A DNA stretch of 64,000 nucleotides from Pseudomonas sp. DY-1 (GTDB taxonomy: Bacteria > Pseudomonadota > Gammaproteobacteria > Pseudomonadales > Pseudomonadaceae): NCBI RefSeq assembly GCF_003626975.1, contig NZ_CP032616.1, forward strand, positions 3,844,001 to 3,908,000, read 5' to 3'. The stretch's first letter is position 1. The number at the start of each line of letters is the position of its first letter. The position numbers and the translations under genes were made by a program. This document shows, piece by piece, positions 3,152-59,675 of this stretch. The notes under the pieces were generated by a model that searched no databases, was not told the origin of the DNA, and saw nothing but the letters and a program-made list of their open reading frames with translations.

Positions 3152-3567
3152 TGCGTCGCACCCTGCGATATCCATAGGCCATGTCGTCGCGCAACATATG
3201 AACGTCGCAAACCGACAATTGCCAAGGCCTCAAGGCTTTATCGTTGAGTCACCCGATTTCGTCGCTGTCGGTTCCCGTGGACCGGCAGACCGTGAGCACA
3301 CCGCTCCGGACCGAAGAACACAAGCGGCGACCTCCCCCCGAATAGAGGTCGGCCTAATAAGAAATTTCGGAAGTACGCGCACCTCCGGCCGAGGTGCTGA
3401 ACCCGCCCAGGGAATGGGTTTCGTAACACTGCCAGAGGGCTGCGAGGTTCTCGAAACATTGTTATCCACACAGGCAAGACAGTCGGCATCACCGGGCTGA
3501 GCGTCGTCGAGCGCCGGTTCTGGCTCCGTGTAGCTGTCCTGGATGTCTACTGAAGGGGAAATATCCC
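3152..3567. promoter_or_regulatory. 416-bp gap with two ACCTC/GAGGT inverted repeats
   Basis: No convincing gene. GACCTC (3329-3334) pairs with GAGGTC (3345-3350), and GCACCTC (3379-3385) pairs with GAGGTGC (3391-3397). The two palindromes use the same ACCTC/GAGGT core about 48 bp apart, upstream of the ABC ATPase gene. They may be activator sites or mRNA hairpins. In P. aeruginosa the cbc operon is controlled by GbdR, but I cannot match a GbdR site from memory. Confidence 0.35.
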
Positions 3568-46158: not shown

Positions 46159-46167
46159 CCCGCCTCC

Positions 46168-46290
46168 CTTCCGAGGGGCGCTGCAGCAAGTGGTGCCTGT
46201 TTCGAATCAGGCTCCGCCTGTCAGGCTCGGAAGGGGCGTAGACCCGGTCGGCAACCCGCTGATCGACAAACGCATCAACGGCGCCCATTC
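46168..46290 (+). ncRNA. S-adenosylhomocysteine (SAH) riboswitch
   Basis: Conserved blocks of the SAH riboswitch appear in order: CCGAGGGGCGCTGCAGC (46171-46187), GGCTCGGAAGGGGC (46224-46237), and CAACGGCGCCCATT (46276-46289). CCGAG of the first pairs with CTCGG of the second. The closing block forms the pseudoknot side (GGCGC / GCGCC). It ends 26 bases before the ahcY start. SAH binding is expected to raise ahcY expression. Confidence 0.93.
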
Positions 46291-46315
46291 GCACACTACG
46301 AATGGAGACTCACGC

Positions 46316-48713: not shown

Positions 48714-49049
48714 TTATGTACAAGCGATTTGAATCGCGAATGAATTCGCTCCCACAATCGGTGCCGGTTTCGCCAGTACGCCGCATCACCCTCACATCCT
48801 GCTTATCGGGATAACCCCCGGTTATTTGCGGCCAGCGCCCACCAGATCGGTGTTTCCGGGTTTCTGCTCCCTCCCCGTCGCTTCCCGCACGTCCACCATC
48901 CTCACCTTTGGCTATGGGCATAAGGATTATTCAGAGGTCAGGACGCCACCGCCTTACCTAGGATGCCCCCGCACCTGTCATCAGGCTGCAAAGAAGCGTG
49001 TGCCCGGCGGGTCTTTCCGCGGGCCTTCTTTGACCAGGCGGAGAGCATC
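48714..49049. promoter_or_regulatory. Leader region of the DUF1302 gene with a REP unit
   Basis: A REP element AATCGCGAATGAATTCGCTC (48732-48751) is followed by a small symmetrical site ATAACC-CCC-GGTTAT (48811-48825), a candidate operator. No other gene is visible. The promoter of the DUF1302/DUF1329 pair should lie in this stretch. Confidence 0.5.
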
Positions 49050-50879
49050 ATGAAAAGAACAACAAAAGGCGCGGGGACCATGTATCCCAGCGTTCTGGCC
49101 CTGGCTGTAGCACTCTCGAGCGCGCAACCTGCACAAGCCGCCAGTTTCAATATCGGGGAAATCGAGGGACGTTTCGACTCGTCGCTGTCCATCGGCGCCA
49201 GCTGGGCGATGGACGAGGCCGACGCTGCCTTCATCGGCAAGGCCAACGGTGGAACCGCGTCGACCCGCACCAGCGACGACGGACGACTGAATTTCAAGAA
49301 GGGCGAAACCTTCTCGAAGATCTTCAAGGGCATCCATGACCTCGAACTCAAGTACGGCGACACCGGCGTCTTCCTGCGCGGCAAGTACTGGTACGACTTC
49401 GAGCTGAAGGATGAGCACCGCCCGCTCTACGACATAGACGACAGCGGCCGCGACAACGCGGCCAAATCATCCGGCACCCAGCTGCTGGACGCCTTCGTCT
49501 ACCACAACTACCTGATCGATGACCTGCCGGGCAGCGTGCGTGCCGGCAAACAGGTGGTGAGCTGGGGCGAAAGCACCTTCATCGGCAACGGTATCAACGC
49601 CATCAACCCCACCGACGTTGCCTCGTTCCGTCGACCGGGCTCGGAGATCAAGGAAGGCCTGATCCCGGTGAACATGCTCTACGCCACCCAGGGCCTGACC
49701 GAGAACCTCTCGGTGGAAGGCTTCTACCAACTGGAGTGGGACAAGACCGTTCTGGACAACTGCGGCACCTTCTTCGGCAGCGACACCGCGCCCCAGGGTT
49801 GCAACCTCGGCATGACCACTTTCGGCACCGACTTCGATCGTGACCCTGCACGCTATGGCTGGGTACCGCGCGAGGCCGACGACGACGCCCGCGACGGCGG
49901 CCAGTTTGGCGTGGCCCTGCGCTGGCTGGTACCGGAGCTGAACGACACCGAGTTCGGCTTCTACGCGCTCAACTACCACAGCCGCACCCCGGAGAGCGTG
50001 TGGACCGTGGGCCGCCCCAGCCTGGCCGCCATCAACGGCGCGCCAGGCCCGGCGACTGCACGCTACCACCTGGCCTACCCCGAAGACATCCGCCTCTACG
50101 GCATCAGCTTCGCCACCACCACCCCGGATGGCACCGCGTTGTCAGGCGAGATCAGCCACCGGCCGAACATGCCGCTGGCGCTCAATGGCACCGATGTTTC
50201 CACCGCGGCCAGCGTTGGCCAACTGACGGACCTGCTGCGCCTCAAGGGCCTGGCAATCTTCGATACCGACTGGGCCGACACGGCGCCCGGCAGCCCGGTG
50301 CAGGGCTACAAGCGCATGCCCTTCACCCAGGCCCAGGTCACGGCGATACACAGCTTCGACCAGGTGCTGGCCGCGGACCGCCTGAACATCGTCGGCGAGG
50401 TGGGCTTCAGCCATATCGGCGACCTCGGCTCCACCGACGGTACCGACCTGCGCTTCGGCCGCAGCAGCGTCTACGGCATGGGCTCGCTGGCGGGGGCCGG
50501 CACCGCGACCATCCCCGGTGTGGGCACGCTGCGCGGCAACCAGCTGTGCACCCGCCTGCTTAACACCGCTAACCCCGACCAATGCACCGACAAGGGTTTC
50601 TATACCCAGAACTCCTGGGGTTACCGCCTGCGCGCGCAACTGGAGTTCAACGACGCCATCGCCGGTGTGAACCTAAAGCCCAACCTGGCCTTCGCCCATG
50701 ACGTCGAGGGCTACGGCCCGTCCTTCACCGAAGGCAACAAGTCGGTGAGCGTCGGCCTCGACGCCGACTACCTGTCCACCTACACCGCCAGCCTGAGTTA
50801 CACCGACTACTTCGGCGGCGACTTCAACACCAACACCGACCGCGACTTCCTCGCCTTCAGCGTCGGCGCGAGCTTCTGA
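49050..50879 (+). CDS. DUF1302 family outer-membrane protein
   Basis: Large exported protein of 609 residues. ATG 49050 is preceded by GGAGAG and gives signal peptide MKRTTKGAGTMYPSVLALAV ending near AQAAS. The body is rich in alternating beta-type segments and aromatic residues, ending in a phenylalanine (FSVGASF), as outer-membrane barrels do. DUF1302 proteins usually sit beside DUF1329 and often MMPL-type exporters, and are linked to transport of lipids, sterols or terpenoids. Here the partner gene begins 11 bp downstream. Substrate unknown. Confidence 0.85.
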   Translation: MKRTTKGAGTMYPSVLALAVALSSAQPAQAASFNIGEIEGRFDSSLSIGASWAMDEADAAFIGKANGGTASTRTSDDGRLNFKKGETFSKIFKGIHDLELKYGDTGVFLRGKYWYDFELKDEHRPLYDIDDSGRDNAAKSSGTQLLDAFVYHNYLIDDLPGSVRAGKQVVSWGESTFIGNGINAINPTDVASFRRPGSEIKEGLIPVNMLYATQGLTENLSVEGFYQLEWDKTVLDNCGTFFGSDTAPQGCNLGMTTFGTDFDRDPARYGWVPREADDDARDGGQFGVALRWLVPELNDTEFGFYALNYHSRTPESVWTVGRPSLAAINGAPGPATARYHLAYPEDIRLYGISFATTTPDGTALSGEISHRPNMPLALNGTDVSTAASVGQLTDLLRLKGLAIFDTDWADTAPGSPVQGYKRMPFTQAQVTAIHSFDQVLAADRLNIVGEVGFSHIGDLGSTDGTDLRFGRSSVYGMGSLAGAGTATIPGVGTLRGNQLCTRLLNTANPDQCTDKGFYTQNSWGYRLRAQLEFNDAIAGVNLKPNLAFAHDVEGYGPSFTEGNKSVSVGLDADYLSTYTASLSYTDYFGGDFNTNTDRDFLAFSVGASF

Positions 50880-50890
50880 GGCCCCTGCAC

Positions 50891-52264
50891 ATGAGATTGA
50901 ACATGATCGATTCACGACTCCTGCGCGCCGGCTGCATCGGCCTCGGCCTGATCGCCACCCAGGCATTGGCCGCAGTGCCGGTCGACCAGGTCACGCGCCT
51001 CGGCGCCGACCTCACGCCCATAGGCGCGGAGAAGGCCGGCAATGCCGATGGCAGCATCCCGGCCTGGACCGGTGGCCTGGCCAAGGACGCCGGCACCCGC
51101 GATGCCGATGGTTTCCTTTCCGACCCGTATGCCGCCGACCAGCCGCTGTTCACCATCACTGCGCAGAACGCCGAGCAGTACAAGGACAAGCTGACCCCAG
51201 GCCAGTTGGCCTTGTTCAAGCGCTACCCGGACAGCTACCGGATTCCGGTGTACCCGACCCGTCGCTCCATCAGCCTGCCCCAGGGCTACCTGGACGCCAG
51301 CCGCGAGAATGCCACCCACACCCAGCTGGCGGAAAACGGCAACGGCCTGCAGAACTACAAAAGCGGCGGCCTGCCCTTCGCCATCCCGAAGGACGGCCTG
51401 GAGGTGATCTGGAACCATATCGGCCGCTACCGGGGGCTGTCCCTGCAGCGCCAGGTGGTGCAGGCCTCGCCCCAGGCCAATGGCGCCTACACGCCGAGCC
51501 TGGTCAAGCAGCAGTTGGCCTACCCGGTGGGCCTCTCCGATTACTCGCCCACGGAGATGGAGAACATCCTCTACTTCTACCGCGAGGAATTCCTCTCTCC
51601 GGCGCGCTTGGCCGGCGGTGTGCTGCTGATCCACGAGACCATCAACCAGGTCAAGGAACCGCGCATGGCCTGGCAGTACAACGCCGGCCAGCGCCGCGTG
51701 CGTCGCGCGCCGCAGATCGCCTACGACAGCCCCGGCGCCGAAGGCATGCGTACCCTGGACGACTTCGACATGTTCAATGGCGCGCCGGATCGCTTCGACT
51801 GGAAGCTGGTGGGCAAGCAGGAGCTGTACATCCCCTACAACGCCTACAAGCTGGGTTCGCCCAAGCTGAAGTACAGCGACATCATCAAGCCCGGCCACCT
51901 CAATCCTGAGCACACTCGCTATGAGCTGCACCGTGTCTGGCATGTGACCGCGACCCTGAAGCCGGGCCAGCGCCACATCTATTCGCGACGCGATCTCTTT
52001 ATCGACGAAGACAGCTGGCAAGCCGCCGAAGCAGACGCCTACGACGGTCGCGGCAACTTGTGGCGCGTTTCCGAAGGTCATACCAGCTTCTTCTATGACC
52101 AGCAGATGCCCCTGTTCAACGCCGAGACCCACTACGACGTGCAGTCTGGTCGCTACGCGGTGAATGCTCTCTACAACGAAGAGAAGAACGCCTACCAGTT
52201 CGGCATCAACTACAGCCGCAAGCAGTTCACTCCCAACGCCCTGCGCGCCACGGGTATCCGCTGA
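50891..52264 (+). CDS. DUF1329 family periplasmic/outer-membrane protein
   Basis: Exported protein of 457 residues that starts at ATG 50891 (a second ATG lies at 50903). The signal peptide LLRAGCIGLGLIATQALAAV precedes the mature domain. The conserved DUF1329 elements are GNADGSIPAWTGG near residue 45 and the long barrel-like second half (FRWKLVGKQELYIPYN-type segment, RVWHVTATLKPGQRHIYSRR). The fold is related to lipoprotein-carrier LolA/LolB. It forms an operon with DUF1302, and the two probably move a hydrophobic compound across the periplasm. Confidence 0.85.
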   Translation: MRLNMIDSRLLRAGCIGLGLIATQALAAVPVDQVTRLGADLTPIGAEKAGNADGSIPAWTGGLAKDAGTRDADGFLSDPYAADQPLFTITAQNAEQYKDKLTPGQLALFKRYPDSYRIPVYPTRRSISLPQGYLDASRENATHTQLAENGNGLQNYKSGGLPFAIPKDGLEVIWNHIGRYRGLSLQRQVVQASPQANGAYTPSLVKQQLAYPVGLSDYSPTEMENILYFYREEFLSPARLAGGVLLIHETINQVKEPRMAWQYNAGQRRVRRAPQIAYDSPGAEGMRTLDDFDMFNGAPDRFDWKLVGKQELYIPYNAYKLGSPKLKYSDIIKPGHLNPEHTRYELHRVWHVTATLKPGQRHIYSRRDLFIDEDSWQAAEADAYDGRGNLWRVSEGHTSFFYDQQMPLFNAETHYDVQSGRYAVNALYNEEKNAYQFGINYSRKQFTPNALRATGIR

Positions 52265-52334
52265 TTTGCATCGTGCTCCACCTTGGCGGCCCTCGGGCCG
52301 CCTTTTTCTTGACCGGATCGGGCCATGGGCACCT

Positions 52335-52440
52335 TGTAGGGGCGATTTCAATCGCCAGGCAGGCCGAAGGTCTGCCCTTGAATACTGCTGGGGGCATCTA
52401 CGCCACCCTTGGCGAATGAGTTCGCCCCTACGGGAGAAGC
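52335..52440. repeat. REP doublet downstream of DUF1329
   Basis: TGTAGGGGCGATTTCAATCG (52336-52355) and CGAATGAGTTCGCCCCTACG (52413-52432) face each other, with GGCAGGCCGAAGGTCTGCC between. The same unit with the same central segment occurs inverted at 8468-8562. Confidence 0.65.
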
Positions 52441-52551
52441 GAATCCGCGAACGCTCTGCACAGCCGCACCGGCTGAAACGTCTCTTTACAGCACCCGGCC
52501 CACTTTTTGCCTTACAGTCGGCCCCACCACCGAACTCATCCGGGCCCATTC

Positions 52552-53478
52552 ATGAAGTTGCACCAGCTCCGCGCCATTGTCGCGATCTGCGAGAGTGGCA
52601 GCATCCAGGAAGCCTCGCGGCTGCTCCACATTTCCCAGCCCGCCCTGTCCAAGGGCATCAAGGAACTGGAAGCCGAACTCGGCGTACCTCTGCTGGTGCG
52701 TTCCAACCGCGGCATCACCCTCACCGAATTCGGCGAGCGCCTTGTACGCCGCGCGCGGCTGATCCTGGAAGAGGTGCGCCGCGCACGTGACGAGATCGAA
52801 ACCCTCAAGGGCGTCATGGACGGCAAGGTCTCCATCGGCGTTTCTCCGGTAACGCCCGGCGCCCAGTTCATCGCCAGCCTCAACCGCTACCGCAAGCGCT
52901 ACCCCAAGGTGCAGGTGCAGATCCACGAATTGCGCCCCTCCAAGCTGATGGAGGGCCTGCGCGAAGGCCTGCTGGATCTGGTGCTTACCTCCCTGCCCGC
53001 CTCCCGCAGCAGTGACGGCTTCCACTGGACCGAACTGTTCACCCAGCCGACGGTGCTTGCCGTGCGCAAAGGCCATCCGCTGCGCCATGTGCGCACCCTG
53101 AACGAGTTGCGCGACCAGGAATGGCTGCTGCAGGACTCACTGGAGCAGTCACGGGTCGGCTGGATGTTCGAGAACTATCAGGTGGAGCCGCCGGAGCGGA
53201 TCATCGAATGCGCCTCGGTGGTGTTGTTCTCCGAACTGGCGCTGAATACCGATGCGATCAGCTATTGGTCGCTGCGGGTCCTCGACCATGTGCGCAAACT
53301 CGGCCAGGAACTGGAGATCATCGATCTGGTGGAACAGGTGCCGCCGATGAACATCTCGCTGGTGTGCCGCGACCAGGAACTGATGACGCGCGAAGCCCAG
53401 GCGCTCACCGACGAGCTGGTCTACGCCTACAAGAACCCCGCTGCCAAGGCCGGCCAGTCGCTGAACCCCACCTCCTGA
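52552..53478 (+). CDS. LysR-family regulator of the adjoining M20-MFS-CapA-DUF2817 cluster
   Basis: LTTR of 308 residues from ATG 52552 (MKLHQLRAIVAICESGS). The helix-turn-helix is IQEASRLLHISQPALSKGIKEL. The effector domain begins near GKVSIGVSPVTPGAQFIASL. It is on the same strand as the next genes, with 145 bp between, rather than divergent. Its C-terminus carries a polar tail after LVYAYKNP. It is the likely activator of the following genes. The inducer is unknown. Confidence 0.88.
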   Translation: MKLHQLRAIVAICESGSIQEASRLLHISQPALSKGIKELEAELGVPLLVRSNRGITLTEFGERLVRRARLILEEVRRARDEIETLKGVMDGKVSIGVSPVTPGAQFIASLNRYRKRYPKVQVQIHELRPSKLMEGLREGLLDLVLTSLPASRSSDGFHWTELFTQPTVLAVRKGHPLRHVRTLNELRDQEWLLQDSLEQSRVGWMFENYQVEPPERIIECASVVLFSELALNTDAISYWSLRVLDHVRKLGQELEIIDLVEQVPPMNISLVCRDQELMTREAQALTDELVYAYKNPAAKAGQSLNPTS

Positions 53479-53623
53479 GGCAATCCGCCTCGTCCCACCG
53501 TGCTGCCGTCGCCGCAGTGCGTGCATAACCAAAGCCGATACGCATGCCCAGAGGTGATTATCCCGGCCACCCTGGGCTGCGGCATGCTGCGCGCCATGCT
53601 GAACACGACAACAAGGGCAAACC

Positions 53624-54805
53624 ATGCAGCTGATCCCACAGATCCTGGCCTGGCAGGATGAATTCGCGCAGATTCGGCGCCAGATCCACCAGCATCCCGA
53701 ACTTGGCTTCGAGGAACGGATCACCAGCGAATTGGTGGCCGGCTACCTGCGCCAGTGGGGCTATGAAGTTTTCGCGGGCGTCGGCGGTACCGGCGTCGTC
53801 GGCGTGCTGTGCAACGGCAGCAGTGCGCGCAGCATCGGTATCCGCGCCGACATGGACGCCCTGCCGATCCAGGAAGAAAGCGGCGTCCCCCATGCCAGCT
53901 GCGAAGCCGGCAAGATGCACGCGTGCGGCCATGATGGGCACACCACCATCCTGCTTTGCGCAGCACGCTACCTCGCCGAAACCCGCCGGTTCGACGGCAC
54001 CCTCAATCTGATCTTCCAACCCGCAGAGGAAACTCTGGGTGGTGCGCGACGCATGATCGAAGACGGCCTGTTCGAGCGCTTCCCCTGCGATGCGGTCTAC
54101 GCACTGCACAACATGCCGGGACTCCCGGTGGGGGCTTTCCTGACCCAGCCCGGCGCCATGAGCGCGTCGTCCGACGTGGCGACCATCCGCCTGATCGGGG
54201 TCGGTGGACACGGCGCCATGCCACACAAGGCCCGCGATCCCATCGTCGCTGCCGCCGAGTTGTTGCTGGCGCTGCAAACCATCGTCGCGCGCAACGTGCC
54301 AGCCGGCGAAGTGGCCGTGGTCACCGTCGGCGCCATCCAGGCCGGTGAGGCCCATAACGTGATCCCGGATGTGGCCACGCTGAAGCTCAGCGTTCGCTCC
54401 ACCCATCCGGATATCCGCAAGCTGCTGCGCCAACGTATCAGCGAGATCAGCCAGGGCGTCGCCCAGGTCCATGGCATCGAGTTGGACCTGGACTACGAAG
54501 AGCGCATCGGCGTGCTGATCAATACCCCAGCCGAAACCGCACTGCTGCAACAGGTGGCGCGTGAGCTGGTGGGTGAGGAGGCGGTGCTGACGAGCGTTCC
54601 CAGCGGTTATCTCGGCAGCGAGGATTTCGCCTCCATGCTGGAAGTGCGGCCCGGCTGCTACATGGTGCTGGGTAACGGCAACAGCGGGCCGAGCGGCTGC
54701 ATGGTCCACAACCCCGGCTACGACTTCAACGACGCCGCCATCCCTTTCGGCGCCAGCCTCTGGGCACGCCTGGTGGAAACGAGCCTGAACGAGGCAAACG
54801 CATGA
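53624..54805 (+). CDS. M20 family metallo-amidohydrolase (hippurate hydrolase-like)
   Basis: Cytoplasmic zinc enzyme of 393 residues, splitting an amide bond of an N-acyl amino acid or peptide. It belongs to the M20D group: IRRQIHQHPELGFEE, IRADMDALPIQEESG, MHACGHDGHT and LIFQPAEETLGGA carry metal ligands and the catalytic glutamate. The dimerisation domain (SASSDVATIRLIGVGGHGAMPHK) is present. No signal peptide. The stop codon overlaps the MFS start (ATGA at 54802), so the two are translationally coupled: the substrate is probably imported, then cleaved. Confidence 0.9.
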   Translation: MQLIPQILAWQDEFAQIRRQIHQHPELGFEERITSELVAGYLRQWGYEVFAGVGGTGVVGVLCNGSSARSIGIRADMDALPIQEESGVPHASCEAGKMHACGHDGHTTILLCAARYLAETRRFDGTLNLIFQPAEETLGGARRMIEDGLFERFPCDAVYALHNMPGLPVGAFLTQPGAMSASSDVATIRLIGVGGHGAMPHKARDPIVAAAELLLALQTIVARNVPAGEVAVVTVGAIQAGEAHNVIPDVATLKLSVRSTHPDIRKLLRQRISEISQGVAQVHGIELDLDYEERIGVLINTPAETALLQQVARELVGEEAVLTSVPSGYLGSEDFASMLEVRPGCYMVLGNGNSGPSGCMVHNPGYDFNDAAIPFGASLWARLVETSLNEANA

Positions 54806-56091
54806 ACGCCCCTTCCGACAGCAGCCGCCCGCTGGTGGTAGCGCTGCTGATGACCGTGATGGTCATCAGCGTGCTCGACAAGAGCATCTTCGCCTTCGCC
54901 GGCCCGCAGATCATCGACGAGCTGAAGCTCTCACCCGAGCAGTTCGGCTTCATCGGCAGCGCATTCTTCTTCCTCTACTCCATTTCCGGCGTGCTGGTGG
55001 GCTTCCTCGCCAACCGCCTACCGAGCCGCGGCATCCTCGCCGGCATGTCGGTGGTGTGGATGGCCGCCCAATTGTTGACTGCCCTTTCCAGCAGCCTCTT
55101 CGCCCTGGTGGCGAGCCGCATGCTGCTTGGCGCCGGCTGCGGCCCAGGCACCGCGGTAACCCAGCACGCCTGTTTCAAATGGTACGACCGGCGTGAGCGA
55201 GTCCTTCCCGCTGCCTTGATCCAGGTGGCGATCATGCTCGGAGCCATCCTCGGCGCACTCTCGCTGCCGCTGCTGATCCAGCACCTGGGCTGGCGCTCCG
55301 GCTACCTGATCCTCGCCACCATCGGTCTCGTCTGGCTGGTGCTGTGGTTGATGGTGGGCCGCGAGGGCGGGCACGATGACGCCGAGAACGAACCGGGCCA
55401 TGGCGCCGTGTCCTACCGCCACCTTTTGCTGAACCGAACTTTCGTCTTCATCACCCTGGCCGGCTTCTGCACCTACCTGCCCACGGCACTGATCTACAGC
55501 TGGGTTCCCACGTATCTGCAAAAGGGCCTGCACATGAGCCCAATGCAATCCGGCTACGTGGTAATGGCAGCCACTGTCGGGGTGATCGTCCTCAACCTGG
55601 TGGTTTCCGGCCTCTCCCAGCGCGCCCTCAAGCGTGGCGCCAGTGTGCGGGTGGCCATGGCCCTGCCGCCAGTGGTGGCCTGCCTGATCGGTGGCGTCGC
55701 CCTCAGCTTGATGGGCTTCTTCGAACAGGGCCTGCTCGCCACGCTAGGCCTCTACCTGCTGGGCGGGATCGTGGTGAACCTGCTGCCCGCCTTCGCCAAC
55801 TCCATCGTCGCCTACATCGCCCCAGCCCGACAGCGCGGCAGCATGTTGGCCATCCACATCGGCCTGATGACCAGCGCCGGCATGCTCGCCCCCCACGTAG
55901 TCGGCCAGGCCATCGGTTGGGAAGGCGGCGATCTGGTCCTCGGCTTCGAGTTGGCCGTCGGCCTGTTCGGTACAGCCCTGCTGGCCGGAGGCCTGCTGGG
56001 CCTGTTTCTGATCGACCCCGAGCGCAGCCGCCAGAAACTCGCCGCTCGCGCAGCCCAATCCCCCAACGCCCCGGCCCCGTGCCAGGCCTGA
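54802..56091 (+). CDS. MFS transporter, ACS-type
   Basis: Inner-membrane permease of 429 residues with 12 hydrophobic segments. It resembles the anion:cation symporter (phthalate/hexuronate permease) branch: DKSIFAFAGPQIIDEL in segment 1, SRMLLGAGCGPG in segment 4 and VPTYLQKGLHM after segment 7. It probably imports an organic anion. It is coupled to the M20 gene by a 4-bp overlap, with the CapA-like gene 16 bp downstream. Confidence 0.88.
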   Translation: MNAPSDSSRPLVVALLMTVMVISVLDKSIFAFAGPQIIDELKLSPEQFGFIGSAFFFLYSISGVLVGFLANRLPSRGILAGMSVVWMAAQLLTALSSSLFALVASRMLLGAGCGPGTAVTQHACFKWYDRRERVLPAALIQVAIMLGAILGALSLPLLIQHLGWRSGYLILATIGLVWLVLWLMVGREGGHDDAENEPGHGAVSYRHLLLNRTFVFITLAGFCTYLPTALIYSWVPTYLQKGLHMSPMQSGYVVMAATVGVIVLNLVVSGLSQRALKRGASVRVAMALPPVVACLIGGVALSLMGFFEQGLLATLGLYLLGGIVVNLLPAFANSIVAYIAPARQRGSMLAIHIGLMTSAGMLAPHVVGQAIGWEGGDLVLGFELAVGLFGTALLAGGLLGLFLIDPERSRQKLAARAAQSPNAPAPCQA

Positions 56092-56107
56092 GTCAGGAAA
56101 TCGCTCC

Positions 56108-57580
56108 ATGTATCAACGTGTCAAAGCCCCGCAGCAGCGGCCCGCCACCCTCGAGTTGCAACCCACCTGGCGCGAGGCCGAGGTCGAAGACGGCTTCTGC
56201 GTGGTCGCCGTTGGCGACATCATCATCACCCACGCCATCGCCCAGAAGCTCAAGCGCAAGTCGCCGGAGTTGCTGGCAATCCTCGGCCGGGGCGATGTGG
56301 TGGTCGGCAACTACGAAGGCTCGGCCATCGACCTGAAGACCTACGACGGCTACCCGGAAGCCGAGTCCGGCTTCGCCTGGCTGATCAGTGACCCGGACGC
56401 CCCGGCGGACCTCGCCGCCCTGGGCTTCAACCTGATGGCCCGCGCCAACAACCATGCCCTGGACTGGGGCGCGGCAGGCATGCGCATGACCAATGAGCTG
56501 CTGGATGCCGCCGGCATCGCCCACGCAGGAACCGGCGCCAGTCTCTCCGCCGCTCGCGCCCCGGCCTTCGTCAACACGGACTGCGCGCGGGTGTCACTGA
56601 TCTCCTACGCAACCACCTTCGAAGCCAATTCACCGGCCAACGATGGCCTCGGCGTGGTGCCGCCGCGTCCCGGCCTGAACCCGCTGCGCACAACGCCCCA
56701 TCGACTGGTATCGGCCGAAGACTTCGCCGTACTCAAGCGCCTCAATGACCAGGAAGCGTTCCAGGACCATTACCTGCTCAAAGCCCTCTACGGCCAGCAC
56801 AGTGTGCACCTGGGGATGGCACTGCACTACCGCGTCGACCCAAGCGCCGCGCCGGGCTCCCTGCGCATCCACTACGAGTGCGACAAGCGCGACCAGGCGG
56901 ACATCCTGCTGAACCTGCGCCAGGCCAAGCAAACCTCCGACTTCACCATCGTCGCCCAGCACACCCACGAGCCGGACAACTTCACCTCCTCAGTGCCCAA
57001 TTACCTGCCGGCACTGGCCCGCAGCCTGGTGGACAACGGCGCCGACATGCTCTGCGGCCATGGCCCGCACCAGATCCGCGGCATCGAGGTCTACAACGGC
57101 AAGCCGCTGCTCTACTCCCTGGGCAATTTCTGCTTCATGGACAACAGCCAGCAGGTGATTGCCCGTGACGAGTGGGAAGAAATGGAATGGATGGCCGCCG
57201 AGGCCATCGTCGGCCCCAAGGGCATCACCAACCCGCGCATTTCCACTCCGGCCGAATTCCTCGAGTGGAAGCGCGTGGTGGGCATCTTCAGTGAGCCGAT
57301 CTGGTTCGAAAGCGTGGTTGCCGAATGCCGCTTCAACGCCGAAGGCCGCCTCAAGGAACTGCTGCTACACCCCATCGAACTGGGCTTCGAAGGACGTGAC
57401 GCCGAGCGCGGCATTCCGCGCCTGGCCTTCGACAGCGAGGACAACCAGCAGCAGGCACGGCGCATCCTCGAGCGCCTGCAGGTGCTGTCCGCGGAATTCG
57501 GTACACGGATCGAGATCGACACCGTGGAGTTCGGCCAACGCATCAGCAGTATTGGCCGGGTGCTGATTCCGACAACCTGA
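56108..57580 (+). CDS. CapA/PgsA-family metallophosphatase-like protein
   Basis: Calcineurin-like fold related to poly-gamma-glutamate proteins CapA and PgsA, 490 residues against 330-400 for most members. Metal-site motifs are VVAVGDIIITHAI, VGNYEGSAI, ARANNHALDWG, AQHTHE and CGHGPHQIRGIEVYNGK, followed by LLYSLGNFCF. No signal peptide or membrane segment is seen, unlike surface CapA, so it is probably cytoplasmic. A C-terminal extension of about 130 residues follows the core. AGGAA precedes ATG 56108. The neighbours imply peptide or amide metabolism rather than capsule synthesis. Confidence 0.85.
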   Translation: MYQRVKAPQQRPATLELQPTWREAEVEDGFCVVAVGDIIITHAIAQKLKRKSPELLAILGRGDVVVGNYEGSAIDLKTYDGYPEAESGFAWLISDPDAPADLAALGFNLMARANNHALDWGAAGMRMTNELLDAAGIAHAGTGASLSAARAPAFVNTDCARVSLISYATTFEANSPANDGLGVVPPRPGLNPLRTTPHRLVSAEDFAVLKRLNDQEAFQDHYLLKALYGQHSVHLGMALHYRVDPSAAPGSLRIHYECDKRDQADILLNLRQAKQTSDFTIVAQHTHEPDNFTSSVPNYLPALARSLVDNGADMLCGHGPHQIRGIEVYNGKPLLYSLGNFCFMDNSQQVIARDEWEEMEWMAAEAIVGPKGITNPRISTPAEFLEWKRVVGIFSEPIWFESVVAECRFNAEGRLKELLLHPIELGFEGRDAERGIPRLAFDSEDNQQQARRILERLQVLSAEFGTRIEIDTVEFGQRISSIGRVLIPTT

Positions 57581-57724
57581 TCGACTCGCGCCACATCTGG
57601 CGGCCCACCCGGCCTCCGGACGCCCTCCAACCCTGATTCGCTGTCGCCAGGCGCCGGCCACAAGCCGGTGCCCGGGCACGGCTGCGCCCGTGAACGACCA
57701 AGGGCGCCTGACCCGGAACCTGAA

Positions 57725-58801
57725 ATGGACCTGACCTGTTTCTCTCGCGATTACGCGGAGGCCCGCGAAAAATTCCTCGAAATCTGCCACCAGCGCCGCC
57801 TCACCGTGGAATCCCATAACCACCCGATGCAGGGTCGCGACAATGAGCAACTTGCACTGGATGTGGCCTTCAGTGGCCCGCGCGACGCCACCAACCTGCT
57901 GGTGATCAGCAGCGGCTGTCACGGCGTCGAGGGATTCTGCGGCTCGGCGATCCAGATCGACCGTCTGCGCGACGGAGACTGGAACGAGCGCTGCCGGCGC
58001 GACAACCTCGCCGTGCTTTACCTACACGCACTCAATCCCTACGGCTTCTCCTGGTTGCGGCGGGTGAACGAAGACAACGTCGACCTGAATCGCAACTTCG
58101 TCGACTTCGGCCAACCGCTGGCGGACAACCCCGATTACCGGGCGGTGGCCCCCTGGCTGATGCGGCCGGGGCTGCTGAGCGACTTGCGTCTGGTGGGCTA
58201 TGCACTGCGTCATGGCAGGAAAAGCCTGCAGGCCGCTATTTCACGGGGCCAGCACAGTGACCCGCATGGCCTGTTCTTCGCCGGCGCCCGCCCAACCTGG
58301 AGCAACCTGACCCTGCGCCGGGTACTGCGCGAACACGCTCGCCAGTGCCGGCGTATCGCCTGGATCGACGTGCATACCGGGCTCGGACCACAGGGCGTCG
58401 GCGAGCGCATCTACAAAGGCCGCCAGCGTGCCGAAGACATCGCCCGCGCACGCCATTGGTGGGGCGAGCAAGTCACCAACAGCGCCGAAGGCAACTCGGT
58501 GTCGGCCCGACTCAACGGCACGCTCGACCAGATGGTGATGAGCGAATGCGCCCAGGCCCAGTACAACGGCCTGACCTTGGAATACGGCACGCTGCCCGGA
58601 CGCAAGGTCCTCTCCGCACTACGTGCCGAGCAGTGGCTGCAAAACCACCCGAATACCGCTCCGGCGGTCCACCAGCGCATCAAGGAGCGCCTGCGCGGTG
58701 CGTTCTATCCGCAGCGGGACGGTTGGAAGCGCGAGGTGCTCGACCAGGCGCGCGAAGTGCTCGACCAGGCCCTGGCCGGGCTGGCCAGCCCCCTGGGTTG
58801 A
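57725..58801 (+). CDS. DUF2817 zinc-carboxypeptidase-like protein
   Basis: 358 residues from ATG 57725 (MDLTCFSRDYAEAREKFLE); a longer in-frame start adds a proline-rich leader with no ribosome site. The M14-like zinc ligands are visible in ISSGCHGVEGFCGSAIQ (His and Glu) and in AWIDVHTGLGPQG. HALNPYGFSWLRRVNEDNVDLNRNF and EYGTLPG complete the family pattern. It lies 144 bp after the CapA-like gene on the same strand. Two hydrolases of amide type in one cluster suggest stepwise breakdown of an unusual peptide. There is no export signal. Confidence 0.85.
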   Translation: MDLTCFSRDYAEAREKFLEICHQRRLTVESHNHPMQGRDNEQLALDVAFSGPRDATNLLVISSGCHGVEGFCGSAIQIDRLRDGDWNERCRRDNLAVLYLHALNPYGFSWLRRVNEDNVDLNRNFVDFGQPLADNPDYRAVAPWLMRPGLLSDLRLVGYALRHGRKSLQAAISRGQHSDPHGLFFAGARPTWSNLTLRRVLREHARQCRRIAWIDVHTGLGPQGVGERIYKGRQRAEDIARARHWWGEQVTNSAEGNSVSARLNGTLDQMVMSECAQAQYNGLTLEYGTLPGRKVLSALRAEQWLQNHPNTAPAVHQRIKERLRGAFYPQRDGWKREVLDQAREVLDQALAGLASPLG

Positions 58802-58913
58802 TGGCGACTGTAGCCGCCTTCGTGATCGCCCCAGTGGCGAAGGCGGTCACAGCTTCGGCGCATTGACCTTCGACTTACTACCCATCGCGCTTGCGGCCAC
58901 GTAATCTGGCCAC

Positions 58914-59675
58914 ATGCTAGTACTTCGCATAGTCCTTCTCACCCTGCTCGCATGTCTCGGCTCAGCCGCCCTGGCCGAGCCCCTGCGCATTGTCAGCGAA
59001 CCCTGGGCGCCCTACATATTCGAAGAAGAAGGCCAACTCCGTGGCCTGGATTACGAGGCCAGCGCCATCGTTTTCCAACGCATGGGCATCGAGGTCCAGT
59101 GGAGTCTGATGCCCTGGAAGCGCTGCCTGATGGAATTGGAAAACGGTCAGGCCGACGCGGTGCTGGACATCTTTCGCAATCAGGAACGCGAGTCGCAGAT
59201 GGTCTTCCCCGCAGAACCGCTGTCGGAAGTGGAGTTCGTGCTGTTCTATGCGCGGCAACGACCCTACCCGTTCCAGCGCCTGGCCGATCTTCGGGGCCTG
59301 AAGATAGGTGTTTCCCCCGGTTACTGGTACGCCGACCAGGCTTTTCGTACCTCGCCACTGTTCACCCGCGAACCGGCGCCGACCCACGAGGCCAATCTCG
59401 GCAAGCTGGTGCGCGATCGGGTCGATCTCGTGGTCAACGACCGCCGCGCCGGCCTATACCTCGTCCACCAGATGGGCCTGGAAACGCAGATCGCCAGTCA
59501 TCCCAGGGCGATCAGCCGCGACCGCTTGTACCTCGCTTTCCGCCGTCAATCGCAACTGGAAAGCCTGGCCGCGCCCTTCGGCGAAGCACTCAGGCGTTTC
59601 AAGCAGGAACCGGCGTACGCACAGCTCGTGGCCCGTTACCGCGAACCGGGCCAGGAAATCTCCAGCAACCGTTGA
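58914..59675 (+). CDS. Orphan periplasmic family-3 solute-binding protein
   Basis: SBP_bac_3 fold of 253 residues with signal peptide MLVLRIVLLTLLACLGSAAL ending near LAEPL. LRIVSEPWAPYIFEEEGQLR, then GLDYEASAIVFQRMGIEVQW, are family-typical. WKRCLMELENGQADAVLDIFR follows. It is 112 bp after DUF2817 on the same strand and could be the periplasmic sensor of that cluster, or independent. No ABC genes are adjacent. Confidence 0.82.
   Translation: MLVLRIVLLTLLACLGSAALAEPLRIVSEPWAPYIFEEEGQLRGLDYEASAIVFQRMGIEVQWSLMPWKRCLMELENGQADAVLDIFRNQERESQMVFPAEPLSEVEFVLFYARQRPYPFQRLADLRGLKIGVSPGYWYADQAFRTSPLFTREPAPTHEANLGKLVRDRVDLVVNDRRAGLYLVHQMGLETQIASHPRAISRDRLYLAFRRQSQLESLAAPFGEALRRFKQEPAYAQLVARYREPGQEISSNR

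Follow-up and report, generated by a model that had tools for sequence, protein, structure and literature searches.

Why should a gene of the CapA (PGA_cap) family, members of which are commonly annotated as capsule synthesis genes, stand between the genes of a transporter and a putative peptidase? The question is raised by a locus of Pseudomonas sp. DY-1, located in a stretch of 64,000 nucleotides (nt) of NZ_CP032616.1 (positions 3,844,001 to 3,908,000, hereafter called the window), in which the genes encoding a LysR-type regulator, an M20 amidohydrolase, a major facilitator superfamily (MFS) transporter, a CapA-like protein and a DUF2817 protein all lie on the + strand, with that of LysR first. 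The answer favoured here, with a probability of about 0.5, is that they form a catabolic cassette, controlled by LysR, for the use of an anionic conjugate, and that the PGA_cap protein would act as epimerase of its terminal residue; the capsule label is misleading for the window CapA. That the cassette serves the import and hydrolysis of an amide-linked amino acid compound is considered probable, and the role of CapA as the epimerase of this route is judged evenly balanced. The features of the locus are:

48963 to 50879, + strand: DUF1302 protein of the outer-membrane barrel family (PF06980, 558 bits)
50891 to 52264, + strand: DUF1329 protein, predicted partner of DUF1302, with a hydrophobic N-terminal segment (PF07044, 500 bits)
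52285 to 52302, + strand: terminator-like hairpin 3' of the DUF1329 gene (consensus scan)
52552 to 53478, + strand: LysR-type regulator (PF03466, PF00126)
53523 to 53564, + strand: conserved 42-nt box in the LysR-M20 interval, likely LysR operator/promoter (matrix score 65 bits)
53624 to 54805, + strand: M20D amidohydrolase, optional member, ATG start, 393 amino acids (TIGR01891, 350 bits)
54802 to 56091, + strand: MFS transporter of the anion:cation symporter type, ATG start, 429 amino acids (PF07690, 157 bits)
56108 to 57580, + strand: PGA_cap protein of the MslH type, 490 amino acids, putative cytosolic epimerase of amide-linked residues (PF09587, 161 bits)
57581 to 57724, + strand: intercistronic block with conserved hairpins, 5' of the DUF2817 gene
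57725 to 58801, + strand: DUF2817 protein, putative M14-type metallocarboxypeptidase, 358 amino acids (PF10994, 409 bits)

The sequence-only reading of this DNA had proposed an undescribed uptake and breakdown pathway of four genes following LysR on one strand, with M20 coupled to the permease by 4 bp. The coordinates bear out the arrangement: the M20 and MFS genes overlap by 4 nt, the MFS-CapA gap is 16 nt and the CapA-DUF2817 gap 144 nt, with an alternative open GTG start for DUF2817 at 57668. The four families also co-occur well beyond the source genome, in which the CapA-like gene is the sole PGA_cap match, and the sequence-only reading thereby withstands its own condition that a lack of co-occurrence would refute it. 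Since gene order and orientation are repeated in many species at 55 to 95 % protein identity, the cassette is more than a chance arrangement.

Evidence for an epimerase comes from MslH, the epimerase of the C-terminal Trp of a lasso peptide in MS-271 biosynthesis, for which reversible epimerisation of a C-terminal peptide residue is described (PMC10406935, PMC9266682). The structural model of the window CapA has the MslH fold over its whole length, calcineurin-like with G- and C-domains, and all eight metal and catalytic residues of MslH are kept (D37, E70, N115, H116, D119, H285, H287 and H321). The calcium ligands E44, N87, H259 and H261 of MslH correspond to E70, N115, H285 and H287, and its dyads H88/D91 and H295/D11 to H116/D119 and H321/D37. 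The protein was correctly described earlier as longer than usual and lacking a signal peptide: it exceeds canonical PGA_cap proteins (363 to 370 amino acids; three from the same genus and one from G157) by about 120 amino acids. The C-terminal extension proposed with this description was rejected, the added length in the model being mostly internal, in the MslH G- and C-domains. The G-domain spans 92 residues, compared with 19 to 27 in the two canonical sequences measured, and the HTH-E motif is found in every sequence of the window's own lineage (type A, below), whereas the five canonical proteins compared have HWG and no G-domain.

PgsA/CapA (YwtB) of poly-gamma-glutamate synthesis shares the PGA_cap superfamily with the window protein, and the four dyad residues are also present in the canonical proteins compared; the window CapA differs in having HxH where the canonical proteins have HWG, in its additional G- and C-domains and in showing no membrane segment by hydropathy. 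A membrane anchor is typical of PgsA. None was found in CapA by hydropathy, no 19-residue segment exceeding 1.6, and the maximum of 1.57, from residue 30, coincides with a core beta strand of the model; MslH is alike in that no membrane segment was found. The scan of eight genes gave no domain of a PgsB/PgsC-type synthetase, a search that did not extend to other parts of the genome.

DUF2817 had been called M14-like, and structure comparison agrees, assigning it the M14 carboxypeptidase fold. Its putative active site is formed by H66, E69 and H217, by E286 and by R112, N122 and R123, and H66, E69, H217, E286, N122 and R123 are invariant in 46 sequences; the motif roles (HxxE + H as zinc ligands, a catalytic Glu and an N-R carboxylate clamp) were set by carboxypeptidase A numbering and not by residue superposition. 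Identity with M14 metallocarboxypeptidases (A/B/T) is 11 to 16 % over the entries listed, the Pfam label is still DUF2817, and the window protein is apparently cytosolic, no signal peptide being found by simple hydropathy. In L152, L153 and L155 a second DUF2817 gene (56 to 57 %) adjoins an amino-acid-permease-like transporter gene (by eye), another pairing of DUF2817 with an importer, and a LysR gene of 59 to 60 % is present with it in L152 and L153.

The M20 protein scores 350 bits with TIGR01891 (cut-off 153.75), among solved structures its best relative is the IAA-amino acid hydrolase homologue ILL2 (1xmb, E 1e-69), and simple hydropathy gave no signal peptide. M20 is an optional member of the cassette. 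It was ruled out as the key enzyme, as 4 of 14 searched genomes (L061, L062, L063 and L067) keep MFS-CapA-DUF2817 without any M20 homologue at E<=1e-40. In L062 and L067 a 5' remnant of M20, apparently left by internal deletion, lies between LysR and MFS, with the upstream box intact. The permease of the sequence-only reading is indeed an MFS protein, but its "organic-anion" label comes from below-cut-off matches only (Pfam OATP; NCBIfam TIGR00893); the nearest solved relative is a D-galactonate transporter (E 4e-11, residues 9 to 185).

From gene content, conservation, predicted fold, active-site residues and the exchange of the PGA_cap gene described below, we infer the direction of transport, the epimerisation, the order of steps and the handedness of the residue. 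The candidate substrate would be an N-acyl-amino acid or short peptide with an N-linked amide and a free alpha-carboxylate. It would cross the outer membrane via DUF1302/DUF1329 (via a porin in betaproteobacteria) and the inner membrane via the MFS carrier. In the cytosol the MslH-type PGA_cap protein would then use metal-assisted acid/base chemistry to invert the terminal residue at its alpha-carbon, so that a terminus of D (or wrong) handedness becomes L. The M14-fold DUF2817 would remove this residue, with help from the M20D hydrolase in those species that have it. Both MslH and M14 carboxypeptidases act at a carboxy-terminal residue. The same logic, in which an N-acylated amino acid is epimerised and the L form hydrolysed, is found in the N-acyl/N-succinyl-amino acid racemase, an enolase-fold enzyme which serves D-amino acid use together with an L-specific M20 hydrolase. 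A literature search gave no paper on that system. Unlike it, the window cassette has a PGA_cap protein of calcineurin-like fold, an M14-type enzyme, dedicated import and an optional M20.

How widely the cassette occurs was assessed at several taxonomic levels. Full-length CapA was found in 3 of 18 genomes of the genus, and CapA at E<=1e-30 in 21 of 298 genomes of the family, seven of them of type A (78 to 100 % identical) and fourteen of type B (about 31 % identical), the DUF1302 gene adjoining CapA in all 14 type B genomes. DUF2817 at >=55 % identity occurs in 28 of the 298, including all 21 with an MslH-type PGA_cap; the genomes are related, and the overlap is not an independent-sample statistic. 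The 28 mapped cassettes comprise seven with type A, placed inside the operon, fourteen with type B, divergent from DUF1302, three with a canonical-like type C (G141, G247 and G273) and four with none (G208, G213, G231 and G287, the first two having a weak PGA_cap match elsewhere). M20 lies within the unit in 22 of the 28. The whole unit is held in one fetched stretch at 12 of the 14 type B loci, and in G173 its halves lie on two contigs. In G094 (L186) and L047 the cassette is split, DUF1329 and LysR being about 53 kb apart, which agrees with an organisation in two transcription units.

Named genomes were scanned separately and yielded 54 loci. Close ones number 11, among which four coincide with stretches already mapped above. 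Two of the 11 are betaproteobacterial (Mitsuaria and Aquabacterium), with a divergent LysR followed by porin-MFS-CapA-DUF2817, and four Pseudomonas loci lack M20. Beyond the family, the window CapA was found at E<=1e-30 in 10 of 398 genomes of the phylum and at E<=1e-60 in 2 of 399 genomes of the order of the Mitsuaria genome (that genome included), and the type B CapA at E<=1e-90 in 3 of 318 genomes of the class of a Sphingomonas genome, in varied contexts. DUF2817 as a general partner of the window-CapA family was ruled out: among 19 genomes in which a relative lies outside the cassette, 17 have none at E<=1e-20, which makes the DUF2817-CapA partnership specific to the cassette, and the other two have DUF2817 at 35 to 39 %.

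The PGA_cap gene has been exchanged between lineages at this one cassette. In a tree of 56 sequences type A shares a clade with proteins of Herbaspirillum and Streptomyces (support 100/97), MslH is the next branch out from the type B clade (99/96), and type C groups with a canonical protein, far off and with long branches that were flagged; a single clade of types A and B was rejected (p-AU 2.4e-57). The MFS and DUF2817 proteins of G141 nest among those of type B genomes, yet type C is its sole PGA_cap match. Three lineages at the cassette, together with this type C gene among type B loci, argue that what matters is the PGA_cap step and not which gene provides it. In the MFS tree the four loci lacking PGA_cap fall into one separate clade (one change; SH-aLRT 100, quick method), while they are scattered in the DUF2817 tree (three changes), which suggests that PGA_cap is tied to the specificity of the transporter, that is, to what is imported.

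Relatives outside the cassette were represented by 43 loci, 27 to 49 % identical to the window CapA. An amide or peptide hydrolase of the annotated clusters lies within 7 kb at 25 of them and a transporter of those clusters at 20, with at least one of the two at 30 and both at 15, five of the 43 loci being one repeated betaproteobacterial cluster. Such neighbours accompany many relatives in other phyla as well. The cluster labels came from a Pfam scan of one member each (OppB by eye), unclustered neighbours not being annotated. The families counted were found at none of seven canonical PGA_cap loci, a small and imperfect control in which a single shared locus accounts for five of the seven. 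The recurring cluster (L070, L072, L078, L096 and L103) joins an Opp-type transporter, an N-formylglutamate amidohydrolase and a class A beta-lactamase-fold protein to the CapA relative, and is a candidate second catabolic unit. In the alphaproteobacterium of L185 (9039 to 11564) the CapA relative adjoins an enolase-superfamily-like (mandelate racemase/muconate cycloisomerase) gene and an ABC transporter (by eye). PGA_cap proteins of 540 to 574 amino acids are encoded in L149 (3689 to 5413), L146 (10351 to 12000) and L147 (2957 to 4606), the first about 190 residues of that in L149 having no Pfam match at E<=1e-5.

Several observations weigh against an epimerase at the centre of a catabolic route. 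The window CapA is about 30 % identical to MslH, and the MslH Trp pocket was not matched in a sequence alignment: G60 and L64 are kept, G61 is replaced by F89, I319 by D345, Y345 by L385 and L355 by G392, and L348 is gapped, so that a substrate other than that of MslH would be expected. The NCBIfam MslH model NF038314 gives 197 bits, compared with an equivalog cut-off of 700, so CapA is not MslH itself. MslH prefers a large precursor and a helper protein, unlike a small imported molecule (PMC9266682). The cassette core can work without PGA_cap, which is absent in 4 of the 28. For the loci without PGA_cap, 81 of 500 shuffles were as scattered in the DUF2817 tree; these loci are just four, and the MFS tree contains one long branch. 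Neither hydrolase nor transporter is present at 13 of the 43 relatives' loci, and by eye, in families that were not counted, a carbon-nitrogen-hydrolase-like gene is seen at the canonical loci L192, L195 and L196 and a permease-like one at L193. The Foldseek list for DUF2817 includes succinylglutamate desuccinylase/aspartoacylase-like entries (3fmc), and DUF2817 could conceivably be a deacylase; a family missing from the structures listed is not excluded by its absence. Type C has HWG for the HxH metal motif and is without G- and C-domains, with the four dyad residues kept, and the step common to the three lineages might not be MslH chemistry. In the alternative that survives best, though it is unlikely, the cassette is just as catabolic and PGA_cap acts on the imported compound as a metal-dependent hydrolase, either phosphoesterase or amidase.

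A still less likely alternative is that the cassette processes or recycles a peptide or signal of the cell itself and not a nutrient, as the biosynthetic role of MslH and the built-in regulator might suggest. CapA, unlike MslH, is accompanied by an importer and a carboxypeptidase-like gene; an outer-membrane pair or porin is present along with the MFS; the scan of eight genes, in which small precursor genes were not searched for, gave no ligase or protease domain of lasso type; and the patchy spread within the genus suits an accessory catabolic trait. Doubtful, too, is the alternative that follows the sequence-only reading, in which the compounds imported and broken down would be gamma-linked glutamyl ones, for example fragments of poly-gamma-glutamate. 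The family name and the two amide hydrolases would fit it, and a gamma-glutamyltranspeptidase gene adjoins two acidobacterial relatives (L084 and L088), but CapA belongs to the MslH type and not to that of PgsA, and is apparently a cytosolic protein; the scan of eight genes gave no gamma-glutamyl enzyme, and nothing found in the cassette points to a gamma linkage. Neighbouring genes with unrelated jobs, associated through shared descent, are largely excluded, for although the Pseudomonadaceae genomes are related and the 144-nt gap could hold promoters, the MFS-CapA-DUF2817 order is the same in Mitsuaria and Aquabacterium and three PGA_cap lineages occupy one cassette (the lack of an internal sigma-70-like site weighs little, as there is none before M20 either).

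The catabolic reading with PGA_cap as epimerase, if true, would supply a function for DUF2817 and a physiological partner for DUF1302/DUF1329. Soil bacteria would then have a new route for conjugates with D residues, and biocatalysis would have candidate epimerases. More tentatively, and with less than even odds, PGA_cap proteins at large might be epimerases of amide-linked residues, the cassette being their catabolic use with three lineages, MslH-like and canonical, sharing one reaction. As far as known, this would be the first route by which bacteria use a peptide-level epimerase to feed on peptides or conjugates with a D terminus, and it would offer a genetically simple system for deciding the role of CapA/PgsA. 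A paper by Ogasawara et al. (2019, Org. Lett.) is said, from its title, to concern peptide epimerisation in poly-gamma-glutamate. In favour of the catabolic reading with an epimerase, how much D-glutamate the poly-gamma-glutamate of B. subtilis contains depends on PgsA, a canonical PGA_cap protein, with D/L of 75/25 in its presence and 5/95 in its absence; against an epimerase, the authors attribute this to interaction with a racemase or to conformational change (PMC6029982). A search of the open-licence literature with loose terms, a weak negative, gave nothing relevant on catabolic PGA_cap, the function of DUF2817 or uses of MslH relatives; as far as searches show, the kind of enzyme is known, and its catabolic use and the three-lineage exchange in one cassette are new.

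The DUF1302-DUF1329 pair, which lies between metF and LysR and was not part of the sequence-only reading, belongs to the cassette system, being kept with it in the mapped g1 and g9 loci and in most g14 loci. It is probably its own transcription unit, as the hairpin at 52285 to 52302 closes the pair, although the terminator scan found six sites with 3.7 expected and the hairpin is weak evidence alone. In P. putida the consecutively numbered PP_0765/PP_0766, of the same two families, are essential when Tween 20 is to be used, and a model shows them as a barrel for transport (PMC10866462); the window pair is linked instead to a LysR-MFS-peptidase cassette.

LysR is 73 to 95 % identical in the Pseudomonadaceae loci that carry it in the unit, 36 to 38 % identical and divergent in the two betaproteobacterial loci, and absent from the G247 and G273 stretches. 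The 42-nt box, likely the LysR operator/promoter, scores 65 bits compared with -3.6 for the next site of the window; of 16 related loci scanned, 14 have a single copy in the corresponding position, preceding MFS where M20 is lost, and it is absent from both betaproteobacterial loci. The window site and seven of the scanned loci went into the matrix, so that their own scores are not independent of it. The promoter scan gave no sigma-70-like site in 52200 to 59000, not even before M20, and internal promoters are neither shown nor excluded by this.

The block at 57581 to 57724 is GC-rich, with hairpins, and conserved in nine Pseudomonadaceae loci including the window; two of 19 predicted pairs show compensatory change, the fold z-score is -2.3, and Rfam gave no match. 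The corresponding CapA-DUF2817 gaps of the betaproteobacterial loci are only 14 and 4 nt. A shared operator upstream of DUF1302 was not accepted, the box matrix scoring only -10.1 bits there. An element resembling CACCTTTGGCTATGGGCATAAGGATT lies upstream of DUF1302 at about 48895 to 48936, and a similar CACCTTTGGCTATGGGCATAAGGATT-like element was picked up by low-scoring matches of the box matrix before DUF1302 in L038, L060, L061 and L063. Elsewhere in the window, Rfam identified a proV RNA (3260 to 3406) and an SAH riboswitch (46167 to 46293), both ordinary for their neighbourhood.

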